The position numbers were made by a program, and so were the translations under genes. From a virus: a stretch of 64,000 nucleotides of DNA. The stretch lies in IMG/VR virus record IMGVR_UViG_3300022200_000019, positions 1-64,000 of that record, one strand, 5' to 3'. The notes beneath the pieces are model-generated. The model searched no databases, was not told where the DNA came from, and worked only from the letters and a program-made list of their open reading frames with translations. This document shows, piece by piece, positions 6,691 to 32,636 of the stretch (positions within the stretch are counted from its first letter, which is position 1; every line of letters begins with the position of its first letter).

Positions 6691-9600
6691 TGGCAATTTC
6701 AGACAACCAAAAAGTTGACTATTTGTGGAAAAAGTTAGGTTACTCTGCTACAAAGACAGATACTAATGCTAACAAACTTGGTCCAAACGAAGCTATTCCA
6801 TCACCGTTGTTATTACGCGGTGACAATGTATGGGCAAATTCTGCTGACATTCCAACAGTTATGCCAGCAAGCTCAGCCGGTGTTGTTACTGTATATCCAA
6901 CAAGTGCACCACAAGAATGCACAATGGATAACACAGCAACAACAAACAGAACATGGAAAACTGGTTTAATAGATTGGATCCCGCCGGAGTTTGGATCTAC
7001 ATATCAAGTAAAAGTTTATATTTACACTAGTGGAGATGCAGCAAACGCAGCCGCTAGTGGTACACAAGTGTTTGCAACGGGTTCAGGAAATAATGATGAG
7101 TGGTTCTTTGACTATCAGTCGGGTGTTTTACATTTTATTGGCAGTAGCCTTCCTAACGGTGTTAGTTTTACAGGCAAATCAGTATACGTGTCTGGATCTC
7201 GTTACACTGGCGACAAAGGTGTAAGTTTAACTGGCGATTTTGTTTTTACGAATAATGAAATATCATTAGACCCAGACAATATTATTGTACTAGATACAAC
7301 AACTGGCTTAGTTATACCTACTGGTTCTAGTTTGCAACGTCCTGCTTCTGCTCCAGTAGGTACAATAAGATTTAATACCAATAACGGAAGTCATGAATAT
7401 TGGGACGGAACAGATTGGGTTATACTAAATGATCCGTTAGCAGGATTTGCGGTACAGGAAATTACAGGAGACGGGTCAACTACTAGCTTTACTCTTGACG
7501 CTGAAGTAAATAATGCATCAACTCTTGTAGTAACAATTGGCGGTGTGGTTCAAACCCCAGGACAAGGTTACACTTTAAGCGGTACAACAACTATTGTGTT
7601 TGCAGAAGCTCCGATTGCAACGGACGAAGTTGCTATCCGATTCTTTGGTAGTACTAGAAATGTTTATGTATCAGCATTGTTAAGTCCAAACTGGACTACG
7701 GAAGTTGCTGCAAACGACGCTAACGTTGCAATTAATATTAATAGCAGCAGTATTCTAACTGTTTCAGAAACTGAGACTACACTTGTTGGTGATTTCCTTC
7801 CGGCAGTAAACGAAGTATATGATCTTGGTAGTAGCACGTATAAGTGGAAAGATTTACACCTATCGGGAAATTCGATCTACCTAGGCGATCTAATATTAAA
7901 AGATAATGGCGACGGCACCTTTGGAATTTATAACAATAGCGATGGTTCCGAAGCGTCGATTACTATTACATCTGAAGATGCAGAAAAATGGACTACAGCT
8001 AGAACAATTACTGTCGATGGCGCAGTTACTGGTAGTGTTACACTCGACGGCAGCAGCAATGTTACATTAACAACAACATTAAATTTATCTGGAGCACCTA
8101 CTGCCCCAACAGCAACCGCAGGAACAAATACAACACAAATTGCAACAACGGCGTTTGTAACAACTGCGGTAGACACAGCAATTACAAATCTATTAGATGA
8201 TGCACCAGGTGTGTTAGACACATTAAATGAGTTAGCAGCAGCAATTGGTGACGATGCTAACTTTATAGGAACAATTAACGACAATATTGACTCTAAACTA
8301 AGTTTATCCGGCGGCACAATGACCGGCAACATTGATATGGGGTCTCATAGTTTAACTGGATTACCAGCACCGTTGTCATCAACAGACGCTGCAACTAAAT
8401 CATATGTGGATGCTGCACTATCCAGTACATTGTCAAGCGGTGAGATTGTTCTAGGTACAAATACCACTGGTAACTTCGTTTCAGTTATTACAGCCGGCGA
8501 AGGCATTGACGTTAGCGGAACATCGGGCGTATCGGCAGAAGTTGTTATTTCTGCCGAAGATGCAACAGCAACAAACAAAGGTATTGCAAGTTTTAACGTA
8601 AGCGATTTTACTGTTACTGACGGTAATGTAACTCTAGTTGAAGATAGATTATATGACTTAGTTGGTGAAGTATTCACCGGAAACTCAGTTGAAGGCATTA
8701 TTACTACATTCAATGATGCAACTGAAAAAGTTGACATATCGGTAACTGACTTTGATATTACACTAACAGGCGACATAACTGGTTCTACTTCTGTAACAAA
8801 TTTTGGGTCAAACATTGTAATCAACACAACATCAAACGCAATCGTTGGTATTACAGTACAAGATGATTATGTTGATTTAGGTGATTCTGGAACAGTTAAT
8901 ACGCTAAGTTTTAACGGTGACAACATTACACTTGTTCGTTCAGGTAATACTGTTACTGTTGAAGTAGATGCTGGTTTAACTGAATCAGATGTTCGAGACA
9001 CAATAGGTAATACTGTTAAAGGAACTATTCGAGATCCGGACACTGAAGTTGAAACTGAGTCAGGTATTACTGTAAATTATGATTACGAAAACAATACTGT
9101 TGAATTAGGTGTTAGAGAATTTGACATTACGCTAGTTGGTGACATCACAGGTTCAGGTACTGTATCAAGACTGCAAGACGTAACAATTACTACAGTTGCT
9201 GACTTTATTGCTGGTATTACGGTACAAGATGATAACGTTGATCTTGGGTCTGCTGGAACTGTTAACACTTTAAGTTTTGACGGTAGTAATATTGTTGCTA
9301 CACGCAATGGCGACAAAGTTAATATTAGTATTCCAACTGGGTTAACTGAAGATGACGTTCGCGACACAATCGGTGCAACTGTTAAAGGAACAGTTAGAGA
9401 CCCAGAAACAGCACTTGAAACTGAAACTGGTATTACTGTAAACTATAACTCGGAAAATAATACAGTTGAATTAGGCGTTAGAGAATTTGATATTAACTTA
9501 TCAGGAGCGGTAACCGGTAGTGCAACAGTATCAAGATTACAAGATGTAACTATTATTACAGATACTGATGCAATTGAAGGCTTAACTGTTACTAAGAACA

Positions 9601-10484
9601 GTACAGCAGTTGGATCAATAGAGCAAATTAAATCTCTAAATTTCGTTGGTGCTAACTTAGAAGTAGGAGTTAGCAATACAGATTCATCTGTACTTGACAT
9701 TGCGGTTACTGGTATTGTTGACGAAAACTCAATTGTAGATATCATTAGACCTAAACTTGCTGGTGACCACGACGGTGTAACTGTAACATACGATAATTAT
9801 AACCGCGTTTTTGATATTGCAGTTGATCCAATTACTGTAACGCTTGCTGGTGCAGTTACTGGATCTGGTACAATTACTTTTGATGGTTCGGGAACAGACA
9901 GTACACTAAACATTAATACAGCACTTGGTGGCGGAACTGCTGAAATTAGTGTTTCCGACGAATATGAAACACAAGGTACTGTATCGTCAATTAACTTTGT
10001 AGGTGGCGGCATTACTACAGCAGTAAGTTTAGATGGAACAACAGCAACAGTTTACGTTCCAAACTCACCTGCTAATGAACCGTTCCTAACAGTTGAAGCA
10101 GGAAGTGAAAATGTTCCTAATGCAAGACGTTTAGTAGCAGGCACTGGCATTAGTATTACAGATGGTGGAGCTGGTAGAACATTAACAATTAGTGCTGCAA
10201 GCGACGCAATTTTAGCAAGAAGCCAAATAGCACAAGATGACACACTAGTTGGACAACAAATTGAACTGAATTTTAAAGGTAGTCGGTTTGTACAGCCAGT
10301 TATTGAAGATGACGGCGACAATGATAGAATAAATATAACTATCTACGATATTAAGGAATATTGGTTTAGATCTGATTTTGATTGTGGTTATCTAACTGAT
10401 GATGAAGGTGCTATATTAAATATGGGCAATGATCTAAAGAAAGGTATCTTTGAAACTAAACCAGATCTAGGTTCGATATCATAA
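6690..10484 (+). CDS. Long tail fibre protein with about 122-residue tandem repeats
   Basis: A 1264-residue fibre protein. The N-terminus (about 1-180) is distinct and includes a WFFDYQSGVLHFIG segment. Near residues 222-325 lies the RFNT/GDGST module pair. Next comes YDLGSSTYKWKDLHLSG, a fibre segment that recurs in the giant fibre as YNLGSSSAKWNNVYG. A GLPAPLSSTDAATKSYVDAAL motif follows, typical of phage fibres. The rest is built from tandem beta repeats carrying DVRDTIG, ESGITVNY, NNTVELGVREFDI and GSGTVSRLQDVTI, with a period of 122-123 residues. It overlaps the preceding stop by 1 nt. It probably forms an elongated trimeric shaft. Confidence 0.8.
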   Translation: MAISDNQKVDYLWKKLGYSATKTDTNANKLGPNEAIPSPLLLRGDNVWANSADIPTVMPASSAGVVTVYPTSAPQECTMDNTATTNRTWKTGLIDWIPPEFGSTYQVKVYIYTSGDAANAAASGTQVFATGSGNNDEWFFDYQSGVLHFIGSSLPNGVSFTGKSVYVSGSRYTGDKGVSLTGDFVFTNNEISLDPDNIIVLDTTTGLVIPTGSSLQRPASAPVGTIRFNTNNGSHEYWDGTDWVILNDPLAGFAVQEITGDGSTTSFTLDAEVNNASTLVVTIGGVVQTPGQGYTLSGTTTIVFAEAPIATDEVAIRFFGSTRNVYVSALLSPNWTTEVAANDANVAININSSSILTVSETETTLVGDFLPAVNEVYDLGSSTYKWKDLHLSGNSIYLGDLILKDNGDGTFGIYNNSDGSEASITITSEDAEKWTTARTITVDGAVTGSVTLDGSSNVTLTTTLNLSGAPTAPTATAGTNTTQIATTAFVTTAVDTAITNLLDDAPGVLDTLNELAAAIGDDANFIGTINDNIDSKLSLSGGTMTGNIDMGSHSLTGLPAPLSSTDAATKSYVDAALSSTLSSGEIVLGTNTTGNFVSVITAGEGIDVSGTSGVSAEVVISAEDATATNKGIASFNVSDFTVTDGNVTLVEDRLYDLVGEVFTGNSVEGIITTFNDATEKVDISVTDFDITLTGDITGSTSVTNFGSNIVINTTSNAIVGITVQDDYVDLGDSGTVNTLSFNGDNITLVRSGNTVTVEVDAGLTESDVRDTIGNTVKGTIRDPDTEVETESGITVNYDYENNTVELGVREFDITLVGDITGSGTVSRLQDVTITTVADFIAGITVQDDNVDLGSAGTVNTLSFDGSNIVATRNGDKVNISIPTGLTEDDVRDTIGATVKGTVRDPETALETETGITVNYNSENNTVELGVREFDINLSGAVTGSATVSRLQDVTIITDTDAIEGLTVTKNSTAVGSIEQIKSLNFVGANLEVGVSNTDSSVLDIAVTGIVDENSIVDIIRPKLAGDHDGVTVTYDNYNRVFDIAVDPITVTLAGAVTGSGTITFDGSGTDSTLNINTALGGGTAEISVSDEYETQGTVSSINFVGGGITTAVSLDGTTATVYVPNSPANEPFLTVEAGSENVPNARRLVAGTGISITDGGAGRTLTISAASDAILARSQIAQDDTLVGQQIELNFKGSRFVQPVIEDDGDNDRINITIYDIKEYWFRSDFDCGYLTDDEGAILNMGNDLKKGIFETKPDLGSIS
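8751..9830 (+). repeat. About 366-nt tandem repeats inside the fibre gene
   Basis: The phrase encoding FDI(T/N)L begins at 8751, 9120 and 9486, spacings of 369 and 366 nt, with a degenerate further unit near 9822. The repeats are in frame. Their protein copies are more alike than the DNA, which shows that they are old and functionally constrained. Confidence 0.8.
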
Positions 10485-10494
10485 CAGGATTAAC

Positions 10495-13371
10495 ATGGCA
10501 AGTCAATTACAATTTAGAAGAGGCACAGATTTAGAGCATGATGCGTTTACTGGTGCAGAAGCTGAAATTACAGTAAACACAACTAATAAAAGTGCTCATG
10601 TACACGATGGCGTAACAGCCGGTGGTATTGAACTAGCTCGTGCCGATTTAAATAATATCGATGATGCTACATTCTTAGCAAAAGCAGTAGCAGCAGGTGT
10701 CGAAGCAAGTGGTAGCGGATCCGCAACAGCAACCGTTACTAATATTACAAATGCAAATCCTGCTGTTGTAACCACATTGACTGCCCATGATTTTGCGGAA
10801 AACGCACAAGTAACATTTGTAGATGTTACTGGTATGACCGAAGTCAACGGTGTTGCGTTTTATATTGATGTACTGACTGCGACAACATTTGCGTTATACA
10901 CTGATGTAACATTATCAACAACATATAATGCAATTGCAAACAATTCATATTCTAGTGGAGGCACGGCTACTGCCAGTGCGCCAATTGGTGCCCCATCTAC
11001 AGCAGCATATGTTACTGTAGGTAACAATTCTACATTACCGAACGAGCGAGCATTAACTGCTGGTAACGGTATTACTATTACTGACGGCGGTGCCGGCGGC
11101 GGAATTAGTGTTGCTGCTAAACTTTCAGCAACTGTTCCAAGTAATTTAGGTTCAGCAGCCGCAGGCGTTTCGACTAACATTGCTCGTGCCGATCACGTAC
11201 ATGCTATGCCATCTGCTAGCGACGTAGGGGCTGTACCAACTGCCAGAACCGTTTCGGCAGGATCGGGTTTAAGCGGCGGAGGCGCATTAAGTTCAAACAT
11301 TACTTTAGCGTTAGACGCAGATATTGGTGATTTGGGCGATGTTACTATAACTTCGGCAGCCAATGGCGACATTTTAATTTATAACTCAGCAACTTCCGCC
11401 TGGGAAAATAGTTCAGCACTTGCTCGATTAACAGTTGAAAGTGCCGATTCTACAGTAGGTACAGCATTGGCTATCACTACGTTGAACTTTACCGGTACCG
11501 CAGTCACAGATGGCTCTGTTGTAGTATCTGCCGAAGCAGGCAATAACTCTCAAGTAAATGTTAATATTCCTCGCATTTATACAGAAGAACAAATTCAAGA
11601 TATTGTCGGCGCAATGGTATCAGGCAATACCGAAAGCGGTGTTACTGTAACATACGATGATGCTAGTGGTAAACTAAATTTTGGAAATGACTCATTTGAT
11701 TTGTCATTATCCGGAGATGTTCAAGGTACTGCAACAATTGACCATACTGGTAATGTATCAATGACTACTACTATTTCTGCAGATTCTGTTGCTCTTGGAA
11801 CAGACACAACAGGCAATTATGTGTCAACACTAACTGCTGGTACTGGACTAAGTTTAACAAATGCCGCAGCTGGCGCAGAAGGCGCACAGTATACTATCGC
11901 ATTAAATTTAGATGGTAATACTAGCTTATCTGAATTTGTTGCTGATACTGTTGGTAGTATGGTTACATCTAATACAGAATCTGGAATTAGTGTAACTTAT
12001 CAAGATACTGATAATACATTAGACTTTGATGTTGCTGATTTTACTATTACCTTAACTGGTGATGTTACTGGTACCGGAACAGTTACTAATTTAGGTAACG
12101 TATCGTTTGCAACACAAGTAGCCAATGATTCAATTGCACTAGGTACAAAAACTACTGGTAACTACGTTGCTACATTAACAGCAGGCTCTGGAGTTTCTAT
12201 AACAAATGGTGCCGCTGGTCTAGAAGGATCAGCGTATACAATTGCGCTAGATTTAGGCGGCGCTAGTGGTCTTGATGAATATATTTCCGATACTATCGGT
12301 ACAATGGTTACATCTAACACTGAATCAGGAATTAGTGTAACTTACCAAGACGCTGATAATACATTAGATTTTGACGTTGCTGACTTTACTATTACCTTAG
12401 GTGGTGACTTATCGGGCAATGTTACTATTACTAATTTAGCTAGTGCTACGCTTACTGCTCAAATTGCGGCTGATGCAGTAGAACTAGGTACTAATACTAC
12501 TGGTAACTATGTTAAATCTATTTCAAACGGATCGTATATTACTGGCGCAGGAGCATCTGAAGGTGCAGAAATTACACTAGCAGTTGATGCTACTTCTGCT
12601 AACACAGCAAGTAAAATTGTTGCACGTGATGCATCAGGAAACTTTAGTGCTGGAACTATTACTGCAAACTTAACAGGGACAGCAACATTAGTTAACTGTA
12701 CAGCAAATAATACAACCAATGAATCTGTTTACATTGCGTTTGTTGACGGTGCAACTGGTTCGCAAGGCATTGAAACGGACACGAATTTAGTATATAACCC
12801 AAGCACTAATACATTAACTGTTGACAATTTTGCAGGTACAGCAACGTTAGTTAACTGTACGGCAAACAATACAGCTAATGAAACAACCTATATTACTTTT
12901 GTTGATGGTGCAACTGGCTCACAAGGGTTAGAAACTGACACTGGATTAACATATAATCCAAGCACAGGATCATTAACAGCAACCGAATTTAACGGTACTG
13001 CAACATCTGCAGAGTATGCTGACTTAGCAGAAAGATACTTAGCAGATGACAATTATCAAGCAGGCACAGTTATTGCAGTCGGAGGCGAAGCAGAAGTTAC
13101 AGCAGCACACGCAGGTATCGCACATTCAGTACTAGGTGTCGTTTCAGAGAATCCTGCTTACTTAATGAATAGCACCTTAGAAAATGGCCTAGCTATTGCG
13201 CTTAAAGGACGTGTAAAAGTATTGGTGTTAGGCGAGGTAAATAAAGGTGATAGACTAGTACCATCGACTAGTGCAGGCTATGCTGTTGCTAATAACGACC
13301 GTAATGCTTGGTCATTTGCCATAGCACTAGAAAACAGCTCTACAGGCATTGTAGAAGCAGTTATACTTTAG
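10495..13371 (+). CDS. Tail fibre with Mtd-like N-terminus and conserved C-terminal domain
   Basis: A 958-residue fibre. Residues 1-48 (LQFRRGTDLEHDAFTGAEAE and VHDGVTAGGIEL) match the major-tropism-determinant N-terminal domain, a virion-attachment module. The middle holds repeats of about 115 residues with TESGISVTYQD and DFDVADFTITL. The last 130 residues, from about 830 (AEYADLAERYLADDNYQAGT, GVVSENPAYLMNS, KGDRL), are shared with the fibres ending at 20635 and 23874. They resemble the peptidase G2/IMC-type C-terminal domain that caps or trims fibres. Autocleavage is possible but not shown. AGGATTAAC precedes the ATG. A weak hairpin follows the gene. Confidence 0.8.
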   Translation: MASQLQFRRGTDLEHDAFTGAEAEITVNTTNKSAHVHDGVTAGGIELARADLNNIDDATFLAKAVAAGVEASGSGSATATVTNITNANPAVVTTLTAHDFAENAQVTFVDVTGMTEVNGVAFYIDVLTATTFALYTDVTLSTTYNAIANNSYSSGGTATASAPIGAPSTAAYVTVGNNSTLPNERALTAGNGITITDGGAGGGISVAAKLSATVPSNLGSAAAGVSTNIARADHVHAMPSASDVGAVPTARTVSAGSGLSGGGALSSNITLALDADIGDLGDVTITSAANGDILIYNSATSAWENSSALARLTVESADSTVGTALAITTLNFTGTAVTDGSVVVSAEAGNNSQVNVNIPRIYTEEQIQDIVGAMVSGNTESGVTVTYDDASGKLNFGNDSFDLSLSGDVQGTATIDHTGNVSMTTTISADSVALGTDTTGNYVSTLTAGTGLSLTNAAAGAEGAQYTIALNLDGNTSLSEFVADTVGSMVTSNTESGISVTYQDTDNTLDFDVADFTITLTGDVTGTGTVTNLGNVSFATQVANDSIALGTKTTGNYVATLTAGSGVSITNGAAGLEGSAYTIALDLGGASGLDEYISDTIGTMVTSNTESGISVTYQDADNTLDFDVADFTITLGGDLSGNVTITNLASATLTAQIAADAVELGTNTTGNYVKSISNGSYITGAGASEGAEITLAVDATSANTASKIVARDASGNFSAGTITANLTGTATLVNCTANNTTNESVYIAFVDGATGSQGIETDTNLVYNPSTNTLTVDNFAGTATLVNCTANNTANETTYITFVDGATGSQGLETDTGLTYNPSTGSLTATEFNGTATSAEYADLAERYLADDNYQAGTVIAVGGEAEVTAAHAGIAHSVLGVVSENPAYLMNSTLENGLAIALKGRVKVLVLGEVNKGDRLVPSTSAGYAVANNDRNAWSFAIALENSSTGIVEAVIL
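11960..12402 (+). repeat. Pair of about 345-nt in-frame repeats
   Basis: The stretch beginning GGTTACATCTAA near 11961 recurs near 12307, with about 95 nt that differ at only a few, mostly synonymous, positions. Both copies encode MVTSNTESGISVTYQD and DFDVADFTITL. A more diverged copy lies upstream near 11615. Confidence 0.75.
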
Positions 13372-13386
13372 TAAAATACTCAATTA

Positions 13387-13419
13387 CCTTATTAAAAATA
13401 AGGGCTTACACCTTTTTTA
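13387..13419 (+). terminator. Weak terminator-like hairpin
   Basis: CCTTATT/AATAAGG forms a 7-bp AT-rich stem, but the T-run starts about 9 nt later. It lies between two fibre genes and just before a late promoter. It could reduce read-through, but it is weak. Confidence 0.4.
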
Positions 13420-13431
13420 TCTCCTTTTTAC

Positions 13432-13439
13432 GATAAATA
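13432..13439 (+). promoter_or_regulatory. T4-type late promoter (GATAAATA)
   Basis: GATAAATA lies 41 nt before the giant fibre ATG, which also has an AGGGG ribosome-binding site at about 13467. Confidence 0.75.
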
Positions 13440-13480
13440 CTTTTGCTTTAATTAAGGCAATCTATAGGGGATAATACAAC

Positions 13481-16400
13481 ATGGCTATTACACGTATTAA
13501 GAATAACCAGATTACCGACCTAACGATCACCGCGGCAAAACTTGCCAACAATACGATCACAGCAGGTAAACTGGAAGACAACTTAACTTATGGATCTAAC
13601 TTAACAATTACTGGTAATTTAACAGTTAACGGTGCTTCAACTACCGTTAACTCAACTACCGTTGCTGTTGACGATCCTATTTTGCTTTTAGCTCCTGATC
13701 AAGCCGGCGCAGGCGCCTTAGATATTGGTTTCATCGGTGAACGTGGAACTGATACAAACGTCGCGTTTGTTTGGGACGAAAGTGCAGACAAGTTTGTAGC
13801 TGCTCTAACTTCAAGTGCAGATTCAAGCTCAACAATCACAGTCAGCAGCTATGCTGATATGCAAGTTAACGATTTAGACTTAGCAGCATTAACTGCTACT
13901 GGTAACGCTTCAATTGGTGGTACACTAGGCGTAACTGGCGCAACTACACTAACTGGCGCATTAGCTGCTAACGGTGGTATTACTGTTGACACATCAAACT
14001 TTACTGTTGACGGTTCAACTGGTGCTGTTACTACAGCGTCAACTATCACTGCTACTGGTGCTATTTCTTCAAGCGCAGGCGTTTCTGGTACAACTGGTAC
14101 ATTCAGCAGCAACGTTTCAGCAGGTGGCACACTAGCTTCAACTGGTGATTTTAGTGTTAACACTAATAAGTTTACTGTAGCTTCTGCTTCAGGCAACACT
14201 AGCATTGCTGGTACACTAGGTGTAACTGGTAATACAACAATTGGCGGTACACTAGGCATCACTGGCGAAACTACACTAGCTTCTGCTATTGTTAGTGATT
14301 TAACTGCTGGACGTGTTGTACTAGCTGGTACAGCAGGTGCTCTAGAAGATAACAACAACCTACAATTTGATGGATCAGAGCTAGGCATTACTGGTTCTAT
14401 TGACGTTTCATCTAACGTTGTTATTGGTGGTAACTTAACTGTTAACGGTACAACTACTACTGTTAACTCAACTGTTGTTACAATTGATGACACAATCTTC
14501 ACACTAGGTGGTGATTCAGCTCCAGCTAGCGATGACGATAAAGACCGTGGTATTTCATTCCACTGGCACAACGGCACAGCAGCTAAGTACGGCTTCTTTG
14601 GTTATGATGACTCACTAGGTGAGTTTGTATTCATCCAAGACGGTTCAGAAACTGCTGGTGTAATGTCAGCTTCATCTGGACTAGGTAGTGCTGCTTTTGG
14701 TAGCATGCGTGTTACAGACCTAACAAATGGTCGTGTACTACTAGCTGGTGCTTCTGGTGAAATTGCTGATTCAGGTAACTTAACATTTAATGGTTCTGCA
14801 TTATCTGTTACTGGTACTGCTACAATTTCTAGCAATGCTACAGTTAACGGCAACTTAGACGTTAACGGCGCAACCACAATGGGTAACCTAACTATTGACG
14901 GTACTTCAACTGTTGATATGGGTGCTAACCGTGTTACTAATGTTGCGACTCCGACTGCAACAAGCGATGCAGCTACTAAAGCATATGTTGACCAAGAAGT
15001 TAGTGCTGGTGGTTCTGTTCTAAAGATTTCTGGCGATACTGGAACTGATAGCGTAACTACTGGTGCTGCTAATGACACATTAGCGTTCTCAGGTACTGCT
15101 AACGAAATTGTAACTGCTGTTACTGATAACACCGTTACAGTCAGCTTACCAGATAATGTTACAATTGGTAACAACCTATCTGTTACTACTGACGCTTCAG
15201 TTAGCGGCGCATTGACTGTTACTGGTGCTACTACAGCATCTACAATTGATGCTTCGGGCGCAGTTGGTGTTGATGGTAACTTTGATGTTAATACTAACAA
15301 GTTTACTGTTGCTGCTGCTACAGGTAACACAACAGTTGCTGGTACACTAGGCGTAACTGGTGCTACTACAATGAGTTCTGTTACTACAACTGGTAACGTA
15401 ACTGTTGGTGGTAACTTAACAGTTTCTGGTACAACAACCACAGTTAACTCAACAACTGTTACAGTTGACGATCCAATCTTCACCCTAGGCGGCGACACAG
15501 CTCCTGCTTCGGATGATAACAAGGACCGTGGTATTGAGTTTAACTACCACAATGGCACAGCCGCTAAGGTTGGCTTCTTTGGTTGGGACGACAGCGCAGG
15601 TGAATTTGTATTCATTTCTGACGCAACTAACGTTGCAGAAGTAATGTCAGGTAGCTTAGGTAATGCTGCTTTTGGTTCAGCTCGTGTTGACGATCTAACA
15701 CAAAACCGTTTAGTAATTGTTGGTGCTTCAGGTGAACTAGCAGACAACAGTAACTTAACTTACTCAAGCGATCGTTTAACTGTTGCTGGTACCAATGGTA
15801 TTAGTGTTTCTAACGCAGCAATCCTATCAGGTAACACTGAAGTAGGTGGTACTTTCCAAGTTACTGGTGCTACATCATTAAATGGTAATGTAACACTAGG
15901 CGACGCAGGTGCTGACGCTGTTACTGTTACTGGTACTGCTACATTTGCTCAGCCAGCTGATTTTGACGGTGGTTTCACTGTTGCTGGTTCGCAAACAATT
16001 AACGTAGGTTCTAACCGCATCCAAGCTGTTGCTACTCCAAGTGCTGGCACTGACGCAGTTAACAAATCATACGTTGATAACCTACTAAGTGCAGGTTTTG
16101 ACATTAGCGACGGTACTGACAGCCAAACAATTTCACAAGGAGATACCTTTATTATTAACGGTACTCCAAGCGAGGTTAACGTTGCTGTAAGTGCTACTGA
16201 TACACTAACAATTGGCCTACCAGACAGCGTTACTATTAGCGACGCATTAACTGTTACTGGTGCTGCTACTGTTGGTACAACACTAGGCGTAACTGGTGCT
16301 ACTACACTAAGCTCAACTTTAGCTGCTGGTAACACTACTATTACTGGTACACTAAGCACTTCTGGTGCTGCTACACTAAACTCAGCATCTGTTACTAACA

Positions 16401-19400
16401 ATGCTACAGTTGGTGGTACACTAGGTGTAACTGGTGCTACAGGTATTGATGGCAACTTTGACATTAACACTAACAAGTTTACAGTCAACGCTACTTCAGG
16501 TAACACAGCGATTGCTGGTACATTAGGTGTAACTGGTGCTACTACATTAAGCAGCACATTAGGTGTAACTGGTAATACAACAGTTGGTGGTACATTAGGT
16601 GTAACTGGCGAATCAACATTAGCTTCAGCTACAGTATCAGATCTAACTGCTGGACGTGTTGTACTAGCTGGCACAGCAGGTGCAATTGAAGACTCAGGTA
16701 ACTTAACATTCAATGGTACTGAACTAGGTGTTACTGGTACATTAGATGTTTCTTCGGACGCATCAGTAGGCGGTAACCTAAGCGTTACAGGTAATACTAC
16801 AATTAGTGGTAACCTAACAGTTTCTGGTACAACTACTACTGTTAACTCAACCGTTGTTGAAGTTGCTGACCCAATTATGACAATTGGTGATGATGCTTCA
16901 GATGATAACTTAGACCGTGGTCTAAAATTCAAATGGCATAACGGTACTGCTGCTAAGGCTGGCTTCTTTGGTTATGATGAGTCAACTGGCGAGTTTGTAT
17001 TCATCGAAGACGCAACTGATACAGCAAGTGTAATGAGTGGTTCACTAGGTGCTGCGGCATTTGGTACAATGCGTGTAGCTGATTTAACAGATAACCGCGT
17101 ACTATTAGCCGGTGCTTCGGGTGAAATTGAAGATTCAGGTAACTTGACATTTGACGGTTCTGCTTTAGCAGTAACTGGCACAGCATCGATTAGCAGCAAT
17201 GCAACAGTCGGTGGTACATTAGGTGTTACAGGTGAATCAACTCTGGCAAGTGCTACAGTATCCGATTTAACATCAGGTCGTGTTGTACTAGCTGGCACAG
17301 CCGGATCACTAGAAGATTCAGGTAACTTAACATTTAATGGTACACTACTTTCTGTAACTGGTAACGCTTCTACAAGCGGTAACATTACAGCAGGCGGTAC
17401 TTTAAGTGTAACTGGCACTTCAACATTCACTGGCGCTGTAACTGCTTCTAGCAATGCTACAGTCGGTGGCACTTTAGACGTAACTGGTGCTACATCATTA
17501 AGCAACACATTAACTGTTTCTGGTGCTACTGCGCTAAACGGTGGCTTAACAATGGACACCAACAAGTTTACTGTTGCTGACACAACTGGTAACGTTGCTA
17601 CTGCTGGTACATTAGATGTAACTGGTGCTACGACATTAACTGGTTTACTAACAGCTAACGGTGGTATTACTGCTGATTCTGGAGTATTCACAGTTGCTGA
17701 CACAACTGGTAATGTACACACAGGTGGCACATTAAATGCTGATGGCGCTGCTACACTAGGTTCAACACTAGGCGTTACAGGTGCTACTACATTAAGCAGC
17801 ACGTTAGCTGTAACTGGTGCTACAACACTAACAGGTGCTTTAACTGCTAATGGCACAGTAAGTTTAGACGATGCTGTTGTTATTAACGAAAGTGGTGCTG
17901 ATGTAGACTTCCGTGTTGAAGGCTCTACTAACGCTAACATGTTAATTGTTGACGCTGGTACAGACTCTGTATTAATTGGAACAGCTACTCCAGTAACTGA
18001 CGCTTCATTTGTAATTGGTACTACTGACTCGTTCATGCTACCAGTTGGTTCAAACGCAGAACGTCCAGCAACTGGTGTTCAAGGTATGTTCCGTTTCAAC
18101 AACATCTCAACCACTCCAGAATACTATGATGGTTCTAAGTGGACACAGATGTCAACTGAATTCACTGTTATTGCTTCAGAAACATTTAACGGTGACGGGG
18201 CAACTACTGCGTTTACACTACAAAGCAGTCAAACAACTGCTAGCACAATTGTTAGCATCAACGGTGTTGTTCAGCTACCAACTACAGCATACGCTGTAAG
18301 CGGCACTACATTAACATTTACTGAAGCTCCTGCTACAGGCGACGTTATTGAAGTACGTGAACTAACTACCACTGAAACTGTTGTTAGCCTATCTAACACA
18401 GCTGGTACAGCAACAATTGAATGCTCTGAAGCTAACAGCAACATCGCAGTTGATTGCGGTACAATGACTATTAATGGTAACTTAGTTGCTACTGGTAGCA
18501 TTACTGCTAACGGCGACCTAGCATTTGGTGACGCTAACACTGATAGCATTACATTTAACGCTGACGTTGCTTCAAGCATCCTTCCAGATGTTGACGCAAC
18601 TTATAACTTAGGTTCAAGCAGCGCCAAGTGGAACAATGTATATGGTGTGAATGTTACAGCAACAGGTACTACTACAGTAGCTGATCTAACTGTTGGCGCA
18701 GGCTCAACAATTAGCATGGGCAGCAACAAGATCACTGGCGTAGCAGCTCCAACTGCTTCAACTGACGCAGCTACTAAGGGTTATGTTGATGGTCTACTAA
18801 GTGCTGGTACTGACATTTTCTCAATGGCAGGCGATACTGGTACAGCAAGCACAATGCAAACAGGTGATACTATTACTATCTCAGGTGGTACTGGTTTATC
18901 TTCTGCTTCAACTGCTGATACAATCACAATCAACCTAGATAACAGTGGTGTAACTGCTGGTTCTTATGGTAGTTCAACTGCTATTCCAACCTTCACAGTT
19001 AACGCACAAGGTCAAATCACTGCTGCTGGTACAACATCGATTAGTTCAGACATGTCTATTGCAGCTGACGCAGGCACAGGTGGCCCAATTACAGTTGGCA
19101 CAGACACGTTTACTATCGCTGGTGGTACTAACGTTAATACTTCGGTATTTGGTGATACTATTACTGTTAACTTAGATGCTAGCCCAAGCGTTACTAACCT
19201 AACTGCTAGTGGTACAATCACTGGTGCGTTAAGCGGCAACGTAACTGGTAACGTTACAGGTAACTTAACTGGTAATGTAACATCAACTGGTACATCATCA
19301 TTTGGTACGGTATCAACTAGCGGTAATTTAACTGTTGGCGGTACGTTAAACTCAGACGACATTACAGCTTCAACTGTAACTGTTTCTGGTAACGCTACTA

Positions 19401-20635
19401 TTACTGGTAACTTAACAGTACAAGGTACTACAACTACTGTTAACTCTAACACAGTTAACATTGGTGACTCAATTATCACTCTAAACAGTGACGAAGCTGG
19501 TGCTCCGTCGCAAAACGGCGGCTTTGAAATTGAGCGTGGTACTTCAACTAATGTTAGCCTAGTATGGGATGAAACAAATGATAAGTGGACAGTAGGTTCA
19601 CAAACATTTGTTGCTTCAACATTTGAAGGTGCTTTAACTGGTAACGTAACTGGTAACGTAACTGGTAACGTAACTGGTTCTTCTGGTTCGTGTACTGGTA
19701 ACGCTACAACAGCATCAGCACTACAAACTGCACGCACTATCGCATTAAGTGGTGACGTAAGCGGTTCTGTTAGCTTTGATGGTTCAGCGAATGCTACTAT
19801 TACTGCTACTGTTGCTAACGACAGCCACACACACGCAAGTTCAACTATTAGCGACTTCTCAGAAGCCGTTCAAGACGTTGCTGGTGCTATGTGGTCAACT
19901 AACACTGAATCAGGTGTTAGTGTTGTTTACCAGGACATTGACGGTACACTAGACATTGATGTAAATGACTTTACAATTACATTAAGCGGTGACGTAACTG
20001 GTTCTGGTACAGTAACTAACCTAGGTAACGTTAGCATTACAACTACTGTTGCTGCTAACTCTGTTGCGCTAGGTACTGACACAACTGGTAACTATGTTGC
20101 TAGTGGTGCTACATCAGGTAACGGTATTAGCGGTTCAGTAAGCAGCGAAGGTGGTACATTTACTGTAACATCAAACGCTACTTCTGCTAACACAGCAAGT
20201 ACTATTGTATTCCGTGATGCTAGCGGCAACTTCTCAGCAGGTACTATTACTGGTACAGCTACTACAGCACAATACGCTGACTTGGCAGAAATTTACTCAG
20301 CAGACGCTGAAATTGAGCCAGGTACTGTTGTATGCTTTGGTGGTGACGCAGAAGTAACTACTTGTAACCACGATATGGATCGTAAGGTAGCAGGTGTTGT
20401 TTCTACTAACCCAGCATACTTAATGAACAGTGAAGCAGACGGTGTTGCTGTAGCACTAACAGGTCGTGTTCCTTGTAAGGTAACTGGCACAATCCGTAAG
20501 GGTGATATGCTAGTATCAGCAGGTAACGGCATGGCACGTGCTGAAGAGAATCCAGCTATGGGTTCGGTTATTGGTAAGGCACTAGAAAACAGCGAAGGTG
20601 ATAACATCATTGAAGTTGTTGTAGGTCGCTTATAA
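13481..20635 (+). CDS. Giant modular tail fibre/adhesin
   Basis: A 2384-residue protein, the longest in the window. The body is dozens of short beta repeats of the pattern T-L-x-V-T-G-x-T-T, as expected for a long trimeric beta shaft. Five larger modules of the type NLTVxGTTTTVNSTxVxxDDPI, DRG, WHNGTAA, GFFGxDxSxGEFVFI begin near 13613, 14429, 15410, 16808 and 19406. The first and last are an ERG/WDES variant. Three SDAATKAYVD-type segments separate blocks (near residues 500, 860 and 1765). The RFNT/GDGST pair lies near 1528-1630. The last 120 residues are the C-terminal domain shared with two other fibres. It has its own late promoter and terminator. Confidence 0.85.
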   Translation: MAITRIKNNQITDLTITAAKLANNTITAGKLEDNLTYGSNLTITGNLTVNGASTTVNSTTVAVDDPILLLAPDQAGAGALDIGFIGERGTDTNVAFVWDESADKFVAALTSSADSSSTITVSSYADMQVNDLDLAALTATGNASIGGTLGVTGATTLTGALAANGGITVDTSNFTVDGSTGAVTTASTITATGAISSSAGVSGTTGTFSSNVSAGGTLASTGDFSVNTNKFTVASASGNTSIAGTLGVTGNTTIGGTLGITGETTLASAIVSDLTAGRVVLAGTAGALEDNNNLQFDGSELGITGSIDVSSNVVIGGNLTVNGTTTTVNSTVVTIDDTIFTLGGDSAPASDDDKDRGISFHWHNGTAAKYGFFGYDDSLGEFVFIQDGSETAGVMSASSGLGSAAFGSMRVTDLTNGRVLLAGASGEIADSGNLTFNGSALSVTGTATISSNATVNGNLDVNGATTMGNLTIDGTSTVDMGANRVTNVATPTATSDAATKAYVDQEVSAGGSVLKISGDTGTDSVTTGAANDTLAFSGTANEIVTAVTDNTVTVSLPDNVTIGNNLSVTTDASVSGALTVTGATTASTIDASGAVGVDGNFDVNTNKFTVAAATGNTTVAGTLGVTGATTMSSVTTTGNVTVGGNLTVSGTTTTVNSTTVTVDDPIFTLGGDTAPASDDNKDRGIEFNYHNGTAAKVGFFGWDDSAGEFVFISDATNVAEVMSGSLGNAAFGSARVDDLTQNRLVIVGASGELADNSNLTYSSDRLTVAGTNGISVSNAAILSGNTEVGGTFQVTGATSLNGNVTLGDAGADAVTVTGTATFAQPADFDGGFTVAGSQTINVGSNRIQAVATPSAGTDAVNKSYVDNLLSAGFDISDGTDSQTISQGDTFIINGTPSEVNVAVSATDTLTIGLPDSVTISDALTVTGAATVGTTLGVTGATTLSSTLAAGNTTITGTLSTSGAATLNSASVTNNATVGGTLGVTGATGIDGNFDINTNKFTVNATSGNTAIAGTLGVTGATTLSSTLGVTGNTTVGGTLGVTGESTLASATVSDLTAGRVVLAGTAGAIEDSGNLTFNGTELGVTGTLDVSSDASVGGNLSVTGNTTISGNLTVSGTTTTVNSTVVEVADPIMTIGDDASDDNLDRGLKFKWHNGTAAKAGFFGYDESTGEFVFIEDATDTASVMSGSLGAAAFGTMRVADLTDNRVLLAGASGEIEDSGNLTFDGSALAVTGTASISSNATVGGTLGVTGESTLASATVSDLTSGRVVLAGTAGSLEDSGNLTFNGTLLSVTGNASTSGNITAGGTLSVTGTSTFTGAVTASSNATVGGTLDVTGATSLSNTLTVSGATALNGGLTMDTNKFTVADTTGNVATAGTLDVTGATTLTGLLTANGGITADSGVFTVADTTGNVHTGGTLNADGAATLGSTLGVTGATTLSSTLAVTGATTLTGALTANGTVSLDDAVVINESGADVDFRVEGSTNANMLIVDAGTDSVLIGTATPVTDASFVIGTTDSFMLPVGSNAERPATGVQGMFRFNNISTTPEYYDGSKWTQMSTEFTVIASETFNGDGATTAFTLQSSQTTASTIVSINGVVQLPTTAYAVSGTTLTFTEAPATGDVIEVRELTTTETVVSLSNTAGTATIECSEANSNIAVDCGTMTINGNLVATGSITANGDLAFGDANTDSITFNADVASSILPDVDATYNLGSSSAKWNNVYGVNVTATGTTTVADLTVGAGSTISMGSNKITGVAAPTASTDAATKGYVDGLLSAGTDIFSMAGDTGTASTMQTGDTITISGGTGLSSASTADTITINLDNSGVTAGSYGSSTAIPTFTVNAQGQITAAGTTSISSDMSIAADAGTGGPITVGTDTFTIAGGTNVNTSVFGDTITVNLDASPSVTNLTASGTITGALSGNVTGNVTGNLTGNVTSTGTSSFGTVSTSGNLTVGGTLNSDDITASTVTVSGNATITGNLTVQGTTTTVNSNTVNIGDSIITLNSDEAGAPSQNGGFEIERGTSTNVSLVWDETNDKWTVGSQTFVASTFEGALTGNVTGNVTGNVTGSSGSCTGNATTASALQTARTIALSGDVSGSVSFDGSANATITATVANDSHTHASSTISDFSEAVQDVAGAMWSTNTESGVSVVYQDIDGTLDIDVNDFTITLSGDVTGSGTVTNLGNVSITTTVAANSVALGTDTTGNYVASGATSGNGISGSVSSEGGTFTVTSNATSANTASTIVFRDASGNFSAGTITGTATTAQYADLAEIYSADAEIEPGTVVCFGGDAEVTTCNHDMDRKVAGVVSTNPAYLMNSEADGVAVALTGRVPCKVTGTIRKGDMLVSAGNGMARAEENPAMGSVIGKALENSEGDNIIEVVVGRL
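13613..19680 (+). repeat. Repeat array of the giant fibre
   Basis: The array contains a short repeat encoding GTLGVTGATTL-type units, with many near-identical DNA copies such as GGTGTAACTGGTGCTAC. It also has five long modules starting near 13613, 14429, 15410, 16808 and 19406. The number and spacing of modules is irregular, as expected from repeated in-frame duplication and loss. Confidence 0.85.
19640..19675 (+). repeat. Three exact 12-nt repeats (GGTAACGTAACT)
   Basis: Three perfect head-to-tail copies encode GNVT repeats just before GSSGSCTGNA. The same peptide at 23218-23253 uses a different 12-nt unit. Confidence 0.95.
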
Positions 20636-20655
20636 TCCTTTAGGGTTATAATACC

Positions 20656-20688
20656 AAAAAAGAAAGGGCGGAAACGCCCTTTCTTTTT
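20656..20688 (+). terminator. Intrinsic terminator after the giant fibre
   Basis: A 12-bp stem (AAAGAAAGGGCG with CGCCCTTTCTTT) closes a GAAA loop and is followed by more T. It lies 20 nt after the stop. Confidence 0.95.
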
Positions 20689-20714
20689 GACTAAAATTTC
20701 TAATCACATAACCA

Positions 20715-20722
20715 GATAAATA
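20715..20722 (+). promoter_or_regulatory. T4-type late promoter (GATAAATA)
   Basis: It lies between the giant-fibre terminator and the gene at 20744, with 21 nt between the element and the ATG. Confidence 0.7.
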
Positions 20723-20743
20723 TGTAAAAAGGTAAAGAATACA

Positions 20744-21643
20744 ATGGGCTTAACTAGACCAAGACTTGGACAATTCCAAACTACTACAACAGCATTCGAT
20801 GACGCTATTATTGTATTAAACAATAACGCTAGTAATGCTGATAATAATACAAAAGATATTGGTATTGTATTTGAACGTGGGGCTGACCAGAATCAGGTTT
20901 TTCTATGGGACGAGTCTGCTGACGAATTTATTTTAGCTAGTTCAAACGAACAAGGCTCAACGTCCGGCGATGTAACGTTAATCGGGTACGCAAATCTACA
21001 TATTAATAATCTAATTGCTGAAGGCAGTATTACAATGAAGGGTAATGTTGTCCTCGGTGACGCAGTTACCGATACAGTTACATTCAATGGAGCATATACA
21101 TTCCCTAGTGCTGACGGAAGTGCCAATCAAGTACTAGCAACAGACGGTGCTGGCAACTTGAGTTTTGTTAATGTAGCCACAACATTAGATGCTGTTACTA
21201 CCAACGGTGCCACAACAACAAACGCTATTAGCACTGGCGCTATTACTGTTAGCGGTAATATTGTTCCGAGCGCAAACGAAACATATAGCTTAGGTACTCC
21301 AACAAATAGATTCTCTACACTACACGTTGCTCAAAGCACAGTATATTTAGGCGAAACAGCACTTAGTATTGTAAGTGGAGAGTTATATGTAGATGGAAAT
21401 CCTGTCGCTGGCGCAGGTGACGCTTGGCCAGGATATGATGGCGATTATGATTTAGCAAAAGCACTAGCACAAACAACTTCCGAAACTCCGTTTGAGGAAG
21501 GCGGTGAAGATCCATTTGGTGTTGTACTAACACTTGTGTTTGACAACATGGACCCAGGTGGGCAAATTATTACATATGATTTAGCCGGCACATACGCAAG
21601 CGGCACAGCAACCGGAAGCCCTGAGGCTTACTTGGGCGCATAA
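20744..21643 (+). CDS. Fibre protein, short relative of the giant fibre
   Basis: A 299-residue protein. Residues 1-85 carry the module AFDDAIIVLNN, GIVFERGADQNQVFLWDESADEF, which recurs in the giant fibre and in the fibre at 21670. The middle holds the segment ATDGAGNLSFVNVATTLDAVT. Near residue 183, YSLGTPTNRFSTLHVAQSTV then YLGETAL is the same fibre segment as at 7820 and 18610. The last 60 residues are acidic and Gly-rich, with no match I recognise. The gene lacks the shared C-terminal domain. A late promoter precedes it. It is probably a fibre subunit or shaft part that pairs with its neighbours. Confidence 0.7.
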   Translation: MGLTRPRLGQFQTTTTAFDDAIIVLNNNASNADNNTKDIGIVFERGADQNQVFLWDESADEFILASSNEQGSTSGDVTLIGYANLHINNLIAEGSITMKGNVVLGDAVTDTVTFNGAYTFPSADGSANQVLATDGAGNLSFVNVATTLDAVTTNGATTTNAISTGAITVSGNIVPSANETYSLGTPTNRFSTLHVAQSTVYLGETALSIVSGELYVDGNPVAGAGDAWPGYDGDYDLAKALAQTTSETPFEEGGEDPFGVVLTLVFDNMDPGGQIITYDLAGTYASGTATGSPEAYLGA

Positions 21644-21646
21644 ATA
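21639..21646 (+). promoter_or_regulatory. Late promoter overlapping a stop codon (CATAAATA)
   Basis: The TAA at 21641-21643 that ends the preceding gene is part of CATAAATA. The next ATG is 24 nt after the element and has an AGGA-type ribosome-binding site. Confidence 0.7.
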
Positions 21647-21669
21647 TAGATATCAAACAGGATTAGGAA

Positions 21670-23874
21670 ATGCCTACAGTACTACAATTAAGACGTGGAA
21701 CAACCGCACAAAACAACGCTTTCACTGGCTCCGCTGGCGAGCTTACATTCAACACATCAACTGGTGCATTAAGAGCGCACGATGGAACAACAGCAGGCGG
21801 TGCTGAGATGCTCGTTAATACTGGTAGTAACGCAAATATTTCCCAATCAGTTACATTAACTGGTGCAGTCACTGGTTCGGGTACTATTACTAATCTTGGC
21901 GATTTAACTATTGCTACAACTGCTACAAATGACCCAACTATTACACTAGCAGGTGATTTAACTGGTAGTTGCACACTAACTAACTTAGGAAATGCTACAT
22001 TAACAGCAACTATTGCTGCTAACTCAGTAGCACTTGGCACTGATACTACTGGTAATTATATGTCTAACATTTCTGCTGGTACCGGAATTAGTGTAAGCCA
22101 CACACCAGGCGAAGGATCAACAGGAACTATAGCATTATCACATCTAGGGATTCAATCACTAAGTGATCCTCTAGCTGATAGGATTTTAATGTGGGACAGT
22201 AGCGCAGGCGCAAGTGCTTGGTTAACTGTCGGATCAAATCTAACATTATCAGGAACTACATTAAGTGCCGACACACAAGCACCTGTTGCTGGTACCGGGA
22301 TTAGCGTATCCGGAACAACAGTTTCGTTAGGAACATCAGGAGTAACTGCCGGGAGTTACGGTAGTTCAAGTGCTGTTCCTGTATTAACTGTTGACGCATA
22401 TGGACGTATCACTAGCGCAAGTACAGCAAGTATTACAACTGACTTATCCATTGCTAGCGACTTAGGCACTGGCACAATTAGTTTAGCTAGTGAAACAATG
22501 ACAGTTACAGGCGGCACTAACGCTAATACGAGCATTAGTGGGAACACAATTACAGTAAATGTTGATTCAAGCCCGAGTTTTGGCGGCAATGTTACTATTG
22601 CTGGTAACTTAACAGTAAACGGTACTGTAACCACAGTAGCTACAACAAATACAACAATTAGCGATAGCTTAATTGAATTAAATTCGGGCGCAGCTTCAAA
22701 CGCAAGCGACTTAGGTATTGTAATGGAACGTGGTTTAACTGGAGATAATGCATTTATTGGGTGGGACGAATCCGCTGATAAGTTTATTGTAGGTACAACA
22801 ACAGCAACAGGATCAAGTACAGGCGATTTAGTTATTACTGCTGCTAACCTAACTGTAGCAACTCCTGTTGCTAGCACAGACGCAGCGACCAAAGGATATG
22901 TTGATTCTGCTGTTTCAACAAGTCCTGTAATTACATTAGCAGGCGATTTATCAGGAAGTTGTACATTAACTAACCTAGGAAGTGCTACGTTAACAGCAAC
23001 AATCGCTGCCAACTCAGTAGCATTAGGTACTGATACAACTGGTAATTATGTAGCAGCAGGCGCCACATCTGGCAACGGTATTTCAGGATCTGTAAGCAGC
23101 GAAGGTGGCACGTTTACTGTAACGTCAAATGCCACTAACGCAAATACAGCGAGTACTATTGTATTCCGTGATGCGTCAGGTAATTTCTCAGCAGGTACTA
23201 TTAGTGCTAATTTAACAGGTAATGTTACAGGTAATGTTACAGGTAATGTTACAGGTAGTTCAGGCTCATGCACAGGAAATGCTGCTACAGCAACAAATGC
23301 AACTAATGCTGCAAACGTACAAGTTGATGCTGATAATCTTACAAATGCTACCCACTACATCACTTTCTCGGGTGCTGCAACTGGTAACAACCGTCTAAAC
23401 AGCGATACAGGGTTAACATATAACCCATCAACAAATACATTATCAACTAGTATTTTTTCTGGTACGTCAACAACAGCGAGATATGCTGACTTGGCTGAAA
23501 ATTACATAGCAGATGAAGCATATTCCGCTGGTACTGTTGTAGCATTTGGTGGTGATGCAGAAGTTACAGTTGCTAACACATTTGCTTCGCGCAACACAGC
23601 AGGTGTAGTATCAACTAATCCAGCACACTTAATGAATTCGGAGTTAACTGGAGACACAGTAGTAGCATTAGCACTAGCAGGACGTGTTCCGTGTCGTGTA
23701 GTTGGTGTAGTACGTAAAGGCGACTTAATGGTTGCTTCAAATACTCCGGGGTGTGCTATAGCATGGGGAGAAGAATTACGCGATCCGCCAGCAGGCTCTA
23801 TTATTGGCAAAGCACTTGAAGATAAATCAGGTCAAGGTGAAGGAATTATCGAAGTAGTTGTTGGTGTACGATGA
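21670..23874 (+). CDS. Tail fibre with Mtd-like N-terminus and shared C-terminal domain
   Basis: A 734-residue fibre organised like the one at 10495. Residues 1-45 (LQLRRGTTAQNNAFTGSAGE, AHDGTTAGGAEM) are the Mtd-type N-terminal attachment domain. Beta repeats follow, with one ERG/WDES module near residues 315-380 and an SDAATKGYVDSAV segment near 405. The run ATSGNGISGSVSSEGGTF to NFSAGTI near 460-510 is almost identical to the giant fibre near residue 2206. The last 120 residues are the conserved C-terminal domain (ARYADLAENY, GVVSTNPAHLMNS, RKGDLMV). The stop overlaps the next start (ATGA). Confidence 0.8.
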   Translation: MPTVLQLRRGTTAQNNAFTGSAGELTFNTSTGALRAHDGTTAGGAEMLVNTGSNANISQSVTLTGAVTGSGTITNLGDLTIATTATNDPTITLAGDLTGSCTLTNLGNATLTATIAANSVALGTDTTGNYMSNISAGTGISVSHTPGEGSTGTIALSHLGIQSLSDPLADRILMWDSSAGASAWLTVGSNLTLSGTTLSADTQAPVAGTGISVSGTTVSLGTSGVTAGSYGSSSAVPVLTVDAYGRITSASTASITTDLSIASDLGTGTISLASETMTVTGGTNANTSISGNTITVNVDSSPSFGGNVTIAGNLTVNGTVTTVATTNTTISDSLIELNSGAASNASDLGIVMERGLTGDNAFIGWDESADKFIVGTTTATGSSTGDLVITAANLTVATPVASTDAATKGYVDSAVSTSPVITLAGDLSGSCTLTNLGSATLTATIAANSVALGTDTTGNYVAAGATSGNGISGSVSSEGGTFTVTSNATNANTASTIVFRDASGNFSAGTISANLTGNVTGNVTGNVTGSSGSCTGNAATATNATNAANVQVDADNLTNATHYITFSGAATGNNRLNSDTGLTYNPSTNTLSTSIFSGTSTTARYADLAENYIADEAYSAGTVVAFGGDAEVTVANTFASRNTAGVVSTNPAHLMNSELTGDTVVALALAGRVPCRVVGVVRKGDLMVASNTPGCAIAWGEELRDPPAGSIIGKALEDKSGQGEGIIEVVVGVR
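23218..23253 (+). repeat. Three exact 12-nt repeats (GGTAATGTTACA)
   Basis: Three perfect tandem copies encode GNVT repeats before GSSGSCTGNA. The peptide matches the one encoded at 19640-19675 but uses different synonymous codons. Confidence 0.95.
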
Positions 23875-32602: not shown

Positions 32603-32636
32603 GATATAACAACAATTTATTGTGAGGACAAACAAA

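Follow-up and report, generated by a model that had tools for sequence, protein, structure and literature searches.

Three fibre arms with recombining shafts and position-locked, probably self-cleaving ends in a large aquatic bacterial virus

The fibre locus of a large aquatic bacterial virus encodes three arms that carry the same family of C-terminal domain, and comparison with relatives reveals that this domain stays with its gene position while the shafts in front of it are resized and exchanged in frame. We consider it likely, if short of certain, that the locus builds three trimeric arms: two of them would be split into chains docked from an adapter to an Mtd_N head, the position-locked ends would cut themselves off, and the shafts upstream would recombine in frame.

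Layout of the fibre locus

The window is the whole stretch of DNA analysed here, 64,000 nucleotides that form bases 1–64,000 of a 212,917-base virus record. The fibre genes lie amid tail and head genes, with the major head protein at 65–1255 and, downstream of the fibres, a tail-sheath/sheath-stabiliser-like gene, a 1090-aa tail sheath and a terminase. A megablast search with 24 kb against 50,697 cultured phage records gave no match, and the comparison is therefore based on IMG/VR contigs; most relatives are metagenome contigs, many of them partial, in which repeats are prone to misassembly. One relative (L009) is 100% identical to the window over 9,731 nt. The gene order itself is conserved among relatives. 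The arms comprise the following features, all on the + strand.

6690..10484, +, g6690, the 1264-aa proximal half of arm 1, without the C-terminal chaperone
10272..10481, +, adapter 'ad1', last 70 aa of g6690 (...DCGYLTDDEGAILNMG...ETKPDLGSIS); an Mtd_N-headed gene is next in 6/6 unique copies
10495..13371, +, g10495, the 958-aa distal half of arm 1, with an Mtd_N head, repeats and a chaperone domain
10510..10617, +, Mtd_N of g10495 (aa 6–41); PF18454, 40.1 bits, cut-off 26.3
13015..13368, +, Peptidase_G2-like C-terminal domain of arm 1, cleavage predicted 5' of the D codon at 13021; PF11962 18.1 bits, below the Pfam cut-off when taken alone
13481..20635, +, g13481, the one-piece giant fibre of arm 2 (2384 aa); phrog_697 structural protein, 2.6e-141
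19975..20255, +, shaft module of the giant, common to g21670; family D14, 77% over 281 nt with 22929–23209
20273..20632, +, Peptidase_G2-like C-terminal domain of arm 2, cleavage predicted 5' of the D codon at 20279; PF11962 31.8 bits (cut-off 25) and fold model
20744..21643, +, g20744, the 299-aa proximal half of arm 3, with an MGLTRP head; in 7 position-3 rows a head of this type is joined directly to the chaperone domain
21476..21640, +, adapter 'ad3', last 55 aa of g20744 (...ETPFEEGGEDPFGVVLTLVFDNMDPGG...); an Mtd_N-headed gene is next in 53/56 adapter-recruited copies
21670..23874, +, g21670, the 734-aa distal half of arm 3, with an Mtd_N head, a shaft and a chaperone domain
21685..21792, +, Mtd_N of g21670 (aa 6–41); PF18454, 39.5 bits
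21927..22066, +, direct repeat copy A, flanking the extra shaft of g21670; repeat family D3, matching copy B at 110/137
22917..23056, +, direct repeat copy B of g21670; one 990-nt repeat-to-repeat unit is absent from the 319-aa sibling form
22929..23209, +, shaft module of g21670, common to the giant; family D14
23482..23871, +, Peptidase_G2-like C-terminal domain of arm 3, cleavage predicted 5' of the D codon at 23488; located with the family profile, with no single-sequence Pfam hit

The first-pass annotation had named Mtd-like heads in g10495 and g21670, and both lie above the PF18454 cut-off; g6690 and g20744, which it had not named as partners, also belong to the arms. Its further claim, that internal modules recur in up to five genes, is borne out by blastp links (E<=1e-4, best 4e-70) that connect g6690, g10495, g13481, g20744 and g21670, with no hit from 20 x 5 residue-shuffled proteins.

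A C-terminal domain resembling the phi29 gp12 chaperone

The C-terminal domain of about 120 residues that had been read as common to g10495, g13481 and g21670 is confirmed, its profile matching only these three genes in the whole 213-kb record. The domain starts 118–130 residues from the protein end, and the g10495 and g13481 copies are 60% and 50% identical, respectively, to that of the third fibre. Domain profiles were built from 16 and from 91 copies. The Pfam family Peptidase_G2 (PF11962) matches 12 of the 16 copies (E up to 10) and 52 of the 91 (E up to 0.01); on the window copies alone it passes its cut-off only in the giant, and whole-protein Pfam scans of the fibre genes missed it. PDB sequence searches with one domain copy and with the 16-row profile returned no convincing relative; the relation to gp12 of phage phi29 was recognized through Pfam on family members and through the fold.

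The family profile scores 20.1 bits against the phi29 gp12 C-terminus, the best of 1000 shuffles reaching 6.5. An alignment-based structure prediction of the giant's domain (pLDDT 91.2) superposes on phi29 gp12 (3suc; VIA-align) with a Z-score of 14.8 and an r.m.s.d. of 2.0 Å over 109 aa, model residues 14–133 corresponding to 688–854, at a low structural-alignment identity of 18–20%; a single-sequence fold of the third fibre's end (pLDDT 36) was discarded. The alignment of the same model with 3gqh, a fragment of the gp12 C-terminus, starts at residue 692, opposite the D of YADLAE, and the motif as a whole falls on S691-D692..E695 of gp12. We take S691/D692 to be the gp12 cut site and D692 and E695 to be its catalytic residues. 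The equivalent D and E are kept in 170/170 complete unique copies, a count that carries selection in that its seeds were chosen by motif and its loci drawn by fibre-derived patterns. With the fold, these residues and the likeness to gp12, the end is probably made, used for trimerization and then cut off; that is, we read the domain as probably a Peptidase_G2-type self-cleaving chaperone, cut between A and D of YADLAE, rather than a tip.

The domain might instead be a permanent tip, or a decoration-like module on the virion, that binds receptors. Cement and head-fibre proteins of phages share its fold and head the Foldseek list, in which 3suc is found at rank 13, and the fold alone is therefore no proof of cleavage. 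We nevertheless regard a permanent module as rather improbable, given that the phi29 gp12 chaperone gives the best fitted alignment and that the D..E pair is invariant in the complete copies; strong conservation of the domain would also be unlike a receptor tip. Among cultured phages, tblastn finds the domain at <60% identity in 31 records, from Campylobacter, Pseudomonas, Agrobacterium and Sinorhizobium phages.

The reading as a self-cleaving chaperone places the arms close to the phi29 gp12 pre-neck appendage in fold, in C-terminal place, in the D692/E695 equivalents and in the predicted cut before D. They differ from it in that a single virus carries three paralogues of the domain, with predicted cleavage, each on a fibre whose shaft can be exchanged. 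Virions of phi29 lack the gp12 chaperone (PMC9863714). In Alteromonas phages A5/V22, transient chaperone caps likewise sit at fibre ends and modules are common to distant phages, although there the chaperone is a separate gene resembling the T5/K1F type, whereas here it is fused (PMC10579305).

Position of the domain and turnover of the shafts

Each unique domain was labelled by the gene that follows it and dropped if that marker lay >450 nt away, which left 82 rows (5 at position 1, 31 at position 2 and 46 at position 3). A tree of these domains requires five label changes, with a minimum of two and a shuffled mean of 29.3. Some of the extra changes look like gene loss between the giant and g23871 (L043, L046, L047 and L061), and in one exception the position-1 domains of L040 and L042 group with position 3 of L030, likely through a move of the end or of the whole gene. 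Among the 71 rows with >=90 residues upstream, the nearest neighbour sits at the same position for 68 domains versus 34 of the preceding 90-residue segments (shuffled means 31.1 and 30.6). When the alignment is cut into 15-residue bins, same-position neighbours number 52–66.7 of 71 all through the domain and 21.5–33.7 in the six bins before it; the bin right before the domain is at background (32.5, shuffled mean 31.0). The position signal steps at the predicted cut.

Leaving out the four loss rows gives 64–65 of 67 in the domain and 33–41 upstream, and barring same-locus neighbours gives 64–66 of 71 in the domain with a weak position signal in the shafts (41–45 of 71, shuffled mean 31). In 22 dereplicated rows the four parts of the domain score 12 (shuffled mean 10), 18, 16.5 and 16 and the upstream parts 8–9, so that after dereplication little position signal is left in the opening 30 residues of the domain; in a 12-row set the contrast between domain and shaft is weak and little position signal is left.

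This lock could come from plain linkage with no functional cause, the domain adjoining the label gene and its paralogues being too diverged to recombine. The label markers begin only a few to ~340 nt after the domain, and within a genome the C-terminal paralogues are 56–70% identical in nucleotides, compared with 80–100% for shaft windows. Against this, the signal keeps up across 120 residues and is at background just before them, and heads and whole shafts have been replaced with the domain staying behind. We give linkage a sizeable chance, if less than an even one. The possibility that the domains of one genome diverge in order to avoid each other found no support: those at positions 2 and 3 share 53.6% identity both within and between genomes (n = 20; 2615/5000 permutations), with no sign of active displacement. 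As a direct test of within-genome divergence, this comparison is neutral towards a role of the domains against mixing.

From these alignments, shuffling seems to stop at the predicted cleavage site. The first-pass annotation had taken the locus to be built for in-frame exchange of shafts and tips; the part concerning shafts holds, since shafts are exchanged and resized in frame, whereas interchangeable C-terminal ends find no support, the domain being locked to gene position without exchange within a genome and probably a cleaved chaperone rather than a tip.

The turnover of shafts is seen at the third fibre, which is 319 aa in the siblings L277, L025 and L014 and 734 aa in the window. Window segments 21622–22059 and 22930–23203 align to overlapping stretches of the 319-aa form, and this overlap places the length jump inside the direct repeat 21927–22066/22917–23056, whose copies lie 990 nt apart and in frame. 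Misassembly is a concern with such repeats, and the short forms recur: L014 and L025, from different samples, carry an identical 319-aa gene, and L011 and L012 an identical 355-aa gene. Siblings that share flanks have the g20744-type partner followed by a fibre of 734 aa (the window and L009), 319 aa or 355 aa (L011/L012). Arm 3 also occurs as the partner with a 77-aa gene holding Mtd_N only (L024), as a lone 194–205-aa head gene that ends in IDGGSY (L013, L016, L017 and L022) and as one fused 631-aa fibre (L026). Head types vary too, at positions 1 and 3. In L122 and L123, arm 1 is collinear over the length that the contigs cover, at 85% nucleotide identity. It had been proposed to look among related genomes for hybrid fibres and copy-number variants, and both module count and fibre state do differ between siblings with conserved flanks; fixed fibre order together with fixed module counts was not seen.

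Shaft material also appears to pass between positions. The giant of L016 is a natural hybrid, in which the stretch before the end resembles the third fibre of the window (score 0.74 over the preceding 90 residues). In L200, two paralogous shafts share a 71-nt identical run among 35 synonymous differences in 110 codons, likely a tract of recent exchange. Similarity between the shafts of positions 2 and 3 is higher inside a genome (0.43) than across genomes (0.20; n = 17), and none of 5000 permutations was as high. A block of 140 nt had been described as very close between the giant and the third fibre. It is real (20100–20236 versus 23054–23190, 107/137 nt, ungapped, against at most 77/137 in the third gene for 150 stretches drawn at random from the giant gene), and it is very close only as protein (43/45 residues). 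With 19 of its 45 codons differing synonymously, it represents a long-kept protein segment, and a recent DNA copy is ruled out.

At the far end of the range are forms with no shaft. Twenty-two of the 47 closed genes with Mtd_N plus chaperone recruited by the adapter at position 3 encode 185–189 aa, and in the five examined YAD[LVI]AE begins at about residue 53, right after the head; such genes resemble a cap that carries its own docking head. The position-3 gene therefore spans from no shaft to >1000 aa, and the 734 aa of the window represent a long form.

A dedicated switch, either retroelement diversification or an invertible segment, is scarcely credible as the source of this variation. Mtd_N does take its name from a retroelement-diversified protein; however, no RVT_1 (PF00078) match was found in the 212,917-base record, itself possibly incomplete, where 3 of 14 control genomes were positive, and just two poor inverted repeats of 30–32 nt were found.

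The contrast between moving shafts and fixed ends sets the locus apart from a known case of adhesin mosaicism. The paralogous adhesins TSP1/3/4 of one Kuttervirus phage also swap modules at a conserved junction; there it is the C-terminal receptor module that moves, whereas here the middle moves and the C-terminal domain stays (PMC8432352).

The adapter–Mtd_N joint and the proposed arms

The gene before an Mtd_N gene ends in a conserved adapter of ~50 residues and is without the chaperone. Among 44 position-3 rows with a visible start, most heads are Mtd_N (31 by motif, and L030 by eye) and seven are of the MxLTRP (g20744) type. A regular expression with DPxG was set aside as an adapter detector, as it sorted the rows incorrectly into 16 that have the adapter and 12 that do not; judged by eye, most of the latter have E or T in place of D. 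A profile took its place. Duplicates were removed before all pairing counts. With the profile, 45/45 unique adapters lie at the extreme C-terminus and 44/45 are followed by Mtd_N, counts that carry selection through loci drawn by fibre patterns; in the sole exception (L024) the next gene is the 77-aa Mtd_N-only gene, which falls under the 100-aa filter of the script. No ORF with both adapter and chaperone was found in these first loci.

Recruitment by the adapter alone avoids this selection. In 80 such loci with 56 unique adapters, Mtd_N is next in 53 (47 with the chaperone, three open and three without), including 36 of the 39 on previously unseen contigs; the remaining adapters belong to L335, L354 and L347, the first two of which look like near-copies. 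In the reverse direction the adapter precedes 57 of the 68 Mtd_N heads with room upstream, and since 22 of these 57 genes lack this chaperone, the pairing is independent of it. The arm-1 adapter belongs to a different family with the same behaviour in its six unique copies, and all seven loci that it recruited agree, although these are mostly the same contigs.

Fused arms complement the split ones. Of the genes that join a g20744-type head to the chaperone, all six with a visible upstream ORF have the giant directly upstream. At arm 1, the g6690 head MAISDNQKVDYLWKKLGY is fused to the position-1 chaperone domain in L026 and L042, in which both adapter and Mtd_N are absent. As the adapter precedes Mtd_N and fused fibres have neither, arms 1 and 3 are probably two-part fibres joined from adapter to Mtd_N.

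Adapter and Mtd_N might co-occur through inherited gene order alone, without contact, the order giant–g20744–third fibre–g23871 being widely conserved. Inherited order could account for part of the link. As the whole explanation we regard it as unlikely, in view of the joint absence of both halves from fused fibres and of the lack of any adapter-plus-chaperone ORF; moreover, an adapter of another family pairs with Mtd_N in arm 1, and L030/L031 carry at the arm-3 place both a head and an adapter of the arm-1 type, which is what matched parts would predict.

In the T4 long tail fibre (gp34–gp37), proximal and distal chains follow one another in series, and a similar serial arrangement is proposed here. 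Arm 2 would be a single giant chain (g13481). Arms 1 and 3 would consist of two chains each, a proximal rod (g6690 or g20744) that ends in the adapter and may be fixed to the virion by its own head, and a distal rod (g10495 or g21670) whose Mtd_N head, as co-occurrence and co-loss suggest, would plug onto that adapter. One Peptidase_G2-type domain per arm would trimerize the folding shaft and then, judging from fold and residues, cut itself at A|D. In the pattern seen among relatives, modules between the head and the cut site recombine in frame within and between genomes, through repeat-mediated deletion, expansion and exchange, and the probably self-cut domains remain at their own gene position. 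The data establish the anatomy, the fold of the giant's domain, the conserved D..E pair, the turnover of shafts, the position lock and the pairing of adapter with Mtd_N; cleavage, docking and assembly as trimers are inferred from them.

It is possible, and we hold this more tentatively than the arrangement itself, that the self-cut domains act as private assembly tags against mixed trimers, with Mtd_N and adapter as a general plug-and-socket by which a fibre can be encoded in a single gene or split over two, and at the extreme be reduced to a plug with its chaperone, a cap that has no shaft. If each arm has its own divergent trimerizing domain, removed after folding, near-identical shafts could recombine without forming mixed trimers, and recombination would be tolerated up to the cut site and not beyond it.

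A connecting role for Mtd_N agrees with the system that gave it its name. Mtd is located at the distal tips of tail fibres (PMC3240598), and in Bordetella phage BPP-1 its N-terminal β-prism presumably joins it to the fibre protein (PMC10743442). The likeness lies in a PF18454 head above cut-off in two genes; unlike in BPP-1, Pfam finds no further Mtd domain in these genes and no reverse transcriptase match in the record. Self-cut chaperones, Mtd_N heads and fibre mosaicism are each already known (PMC10684548, PMC8432352, PMC10579305). Within the open-access literature searched, as far as the texts were accessible, the boundary at the cut site, the adapter–Mtd_N rule with its split and fused states and the shaftless forms were not found.

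The locus offers a concrete rule for how shafts may be shuffled without loss of assembly, in that exchange appears to end at the predicted self-cleavage site. If this is true, sequence alone would suffice to divide fibre genes into plug, shaft and disposable end, the mature fibre ends of uncultured phages would become predictable, and the way in which paralogous fibres avoid mixed trimers could be tested with small purified proteins. It also suggests a function for the Mtd_N heads that are widespread in aquatic phage contigs, namely as a connector from fibre to fibre.

Fibre ends and additional domains

Among cultured phages, the C-terminal domain of the window fibres is also present in those of Campylobacter, Pseudomonas (PA5oct group), Agrobacterium and Sinorhizobium. 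Fibre genes with differing head types have an alternative short end, ...DGG[ST]Y, which was found in arm 3 of the related loci L013, L016, L017, L022 and L024, and in the gene preceding the position-3 (arm-3) fibre in L043, L046 and L047; it looks as if it were a further terminator module. Three adapters, the C-terminal segments of proximal fibre genes usually followed by an Mtd_N-headed gene, lacked a downstream Mtd_N gene despite sufficient room (L335, L354 and L347). Additional domains were matched in two window genes.

10495-13371: g10495, distal half of arm 1; E1_FCCH-like stretch (37.2 bits, cut-off 29.5)
4138-6690: g4138; PKD domain, score near the cut-off

Tail sheath and a gene between tail genes

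32622-35894: tail sheath, 1090 aa (phrog_10581)
L270 7696-8295: 199-aa gene starting MLIYIITNKENNKVYVGQT, flanked by conserved tail genes

The sheath compares with 496 positions in the general sheath family, phrog_23. The L270 product, by its motif, is a putative GIY-YIG homing endonuclease.

Genes bordering the fibre locus

The fibre locus is bordered by two genes resembling glycosyltransferase-type proteins.

2058-2678: glycosyltransferase-like gene (phrog_30607, 2e-30), also weakly matching phrog_4603 alpha-2,3-sialyltransferase
23871-24542: glycosyltransferase-like gene (phrog_30607, weak match, 0.0017)

Both genes might serve in fibre decoration.
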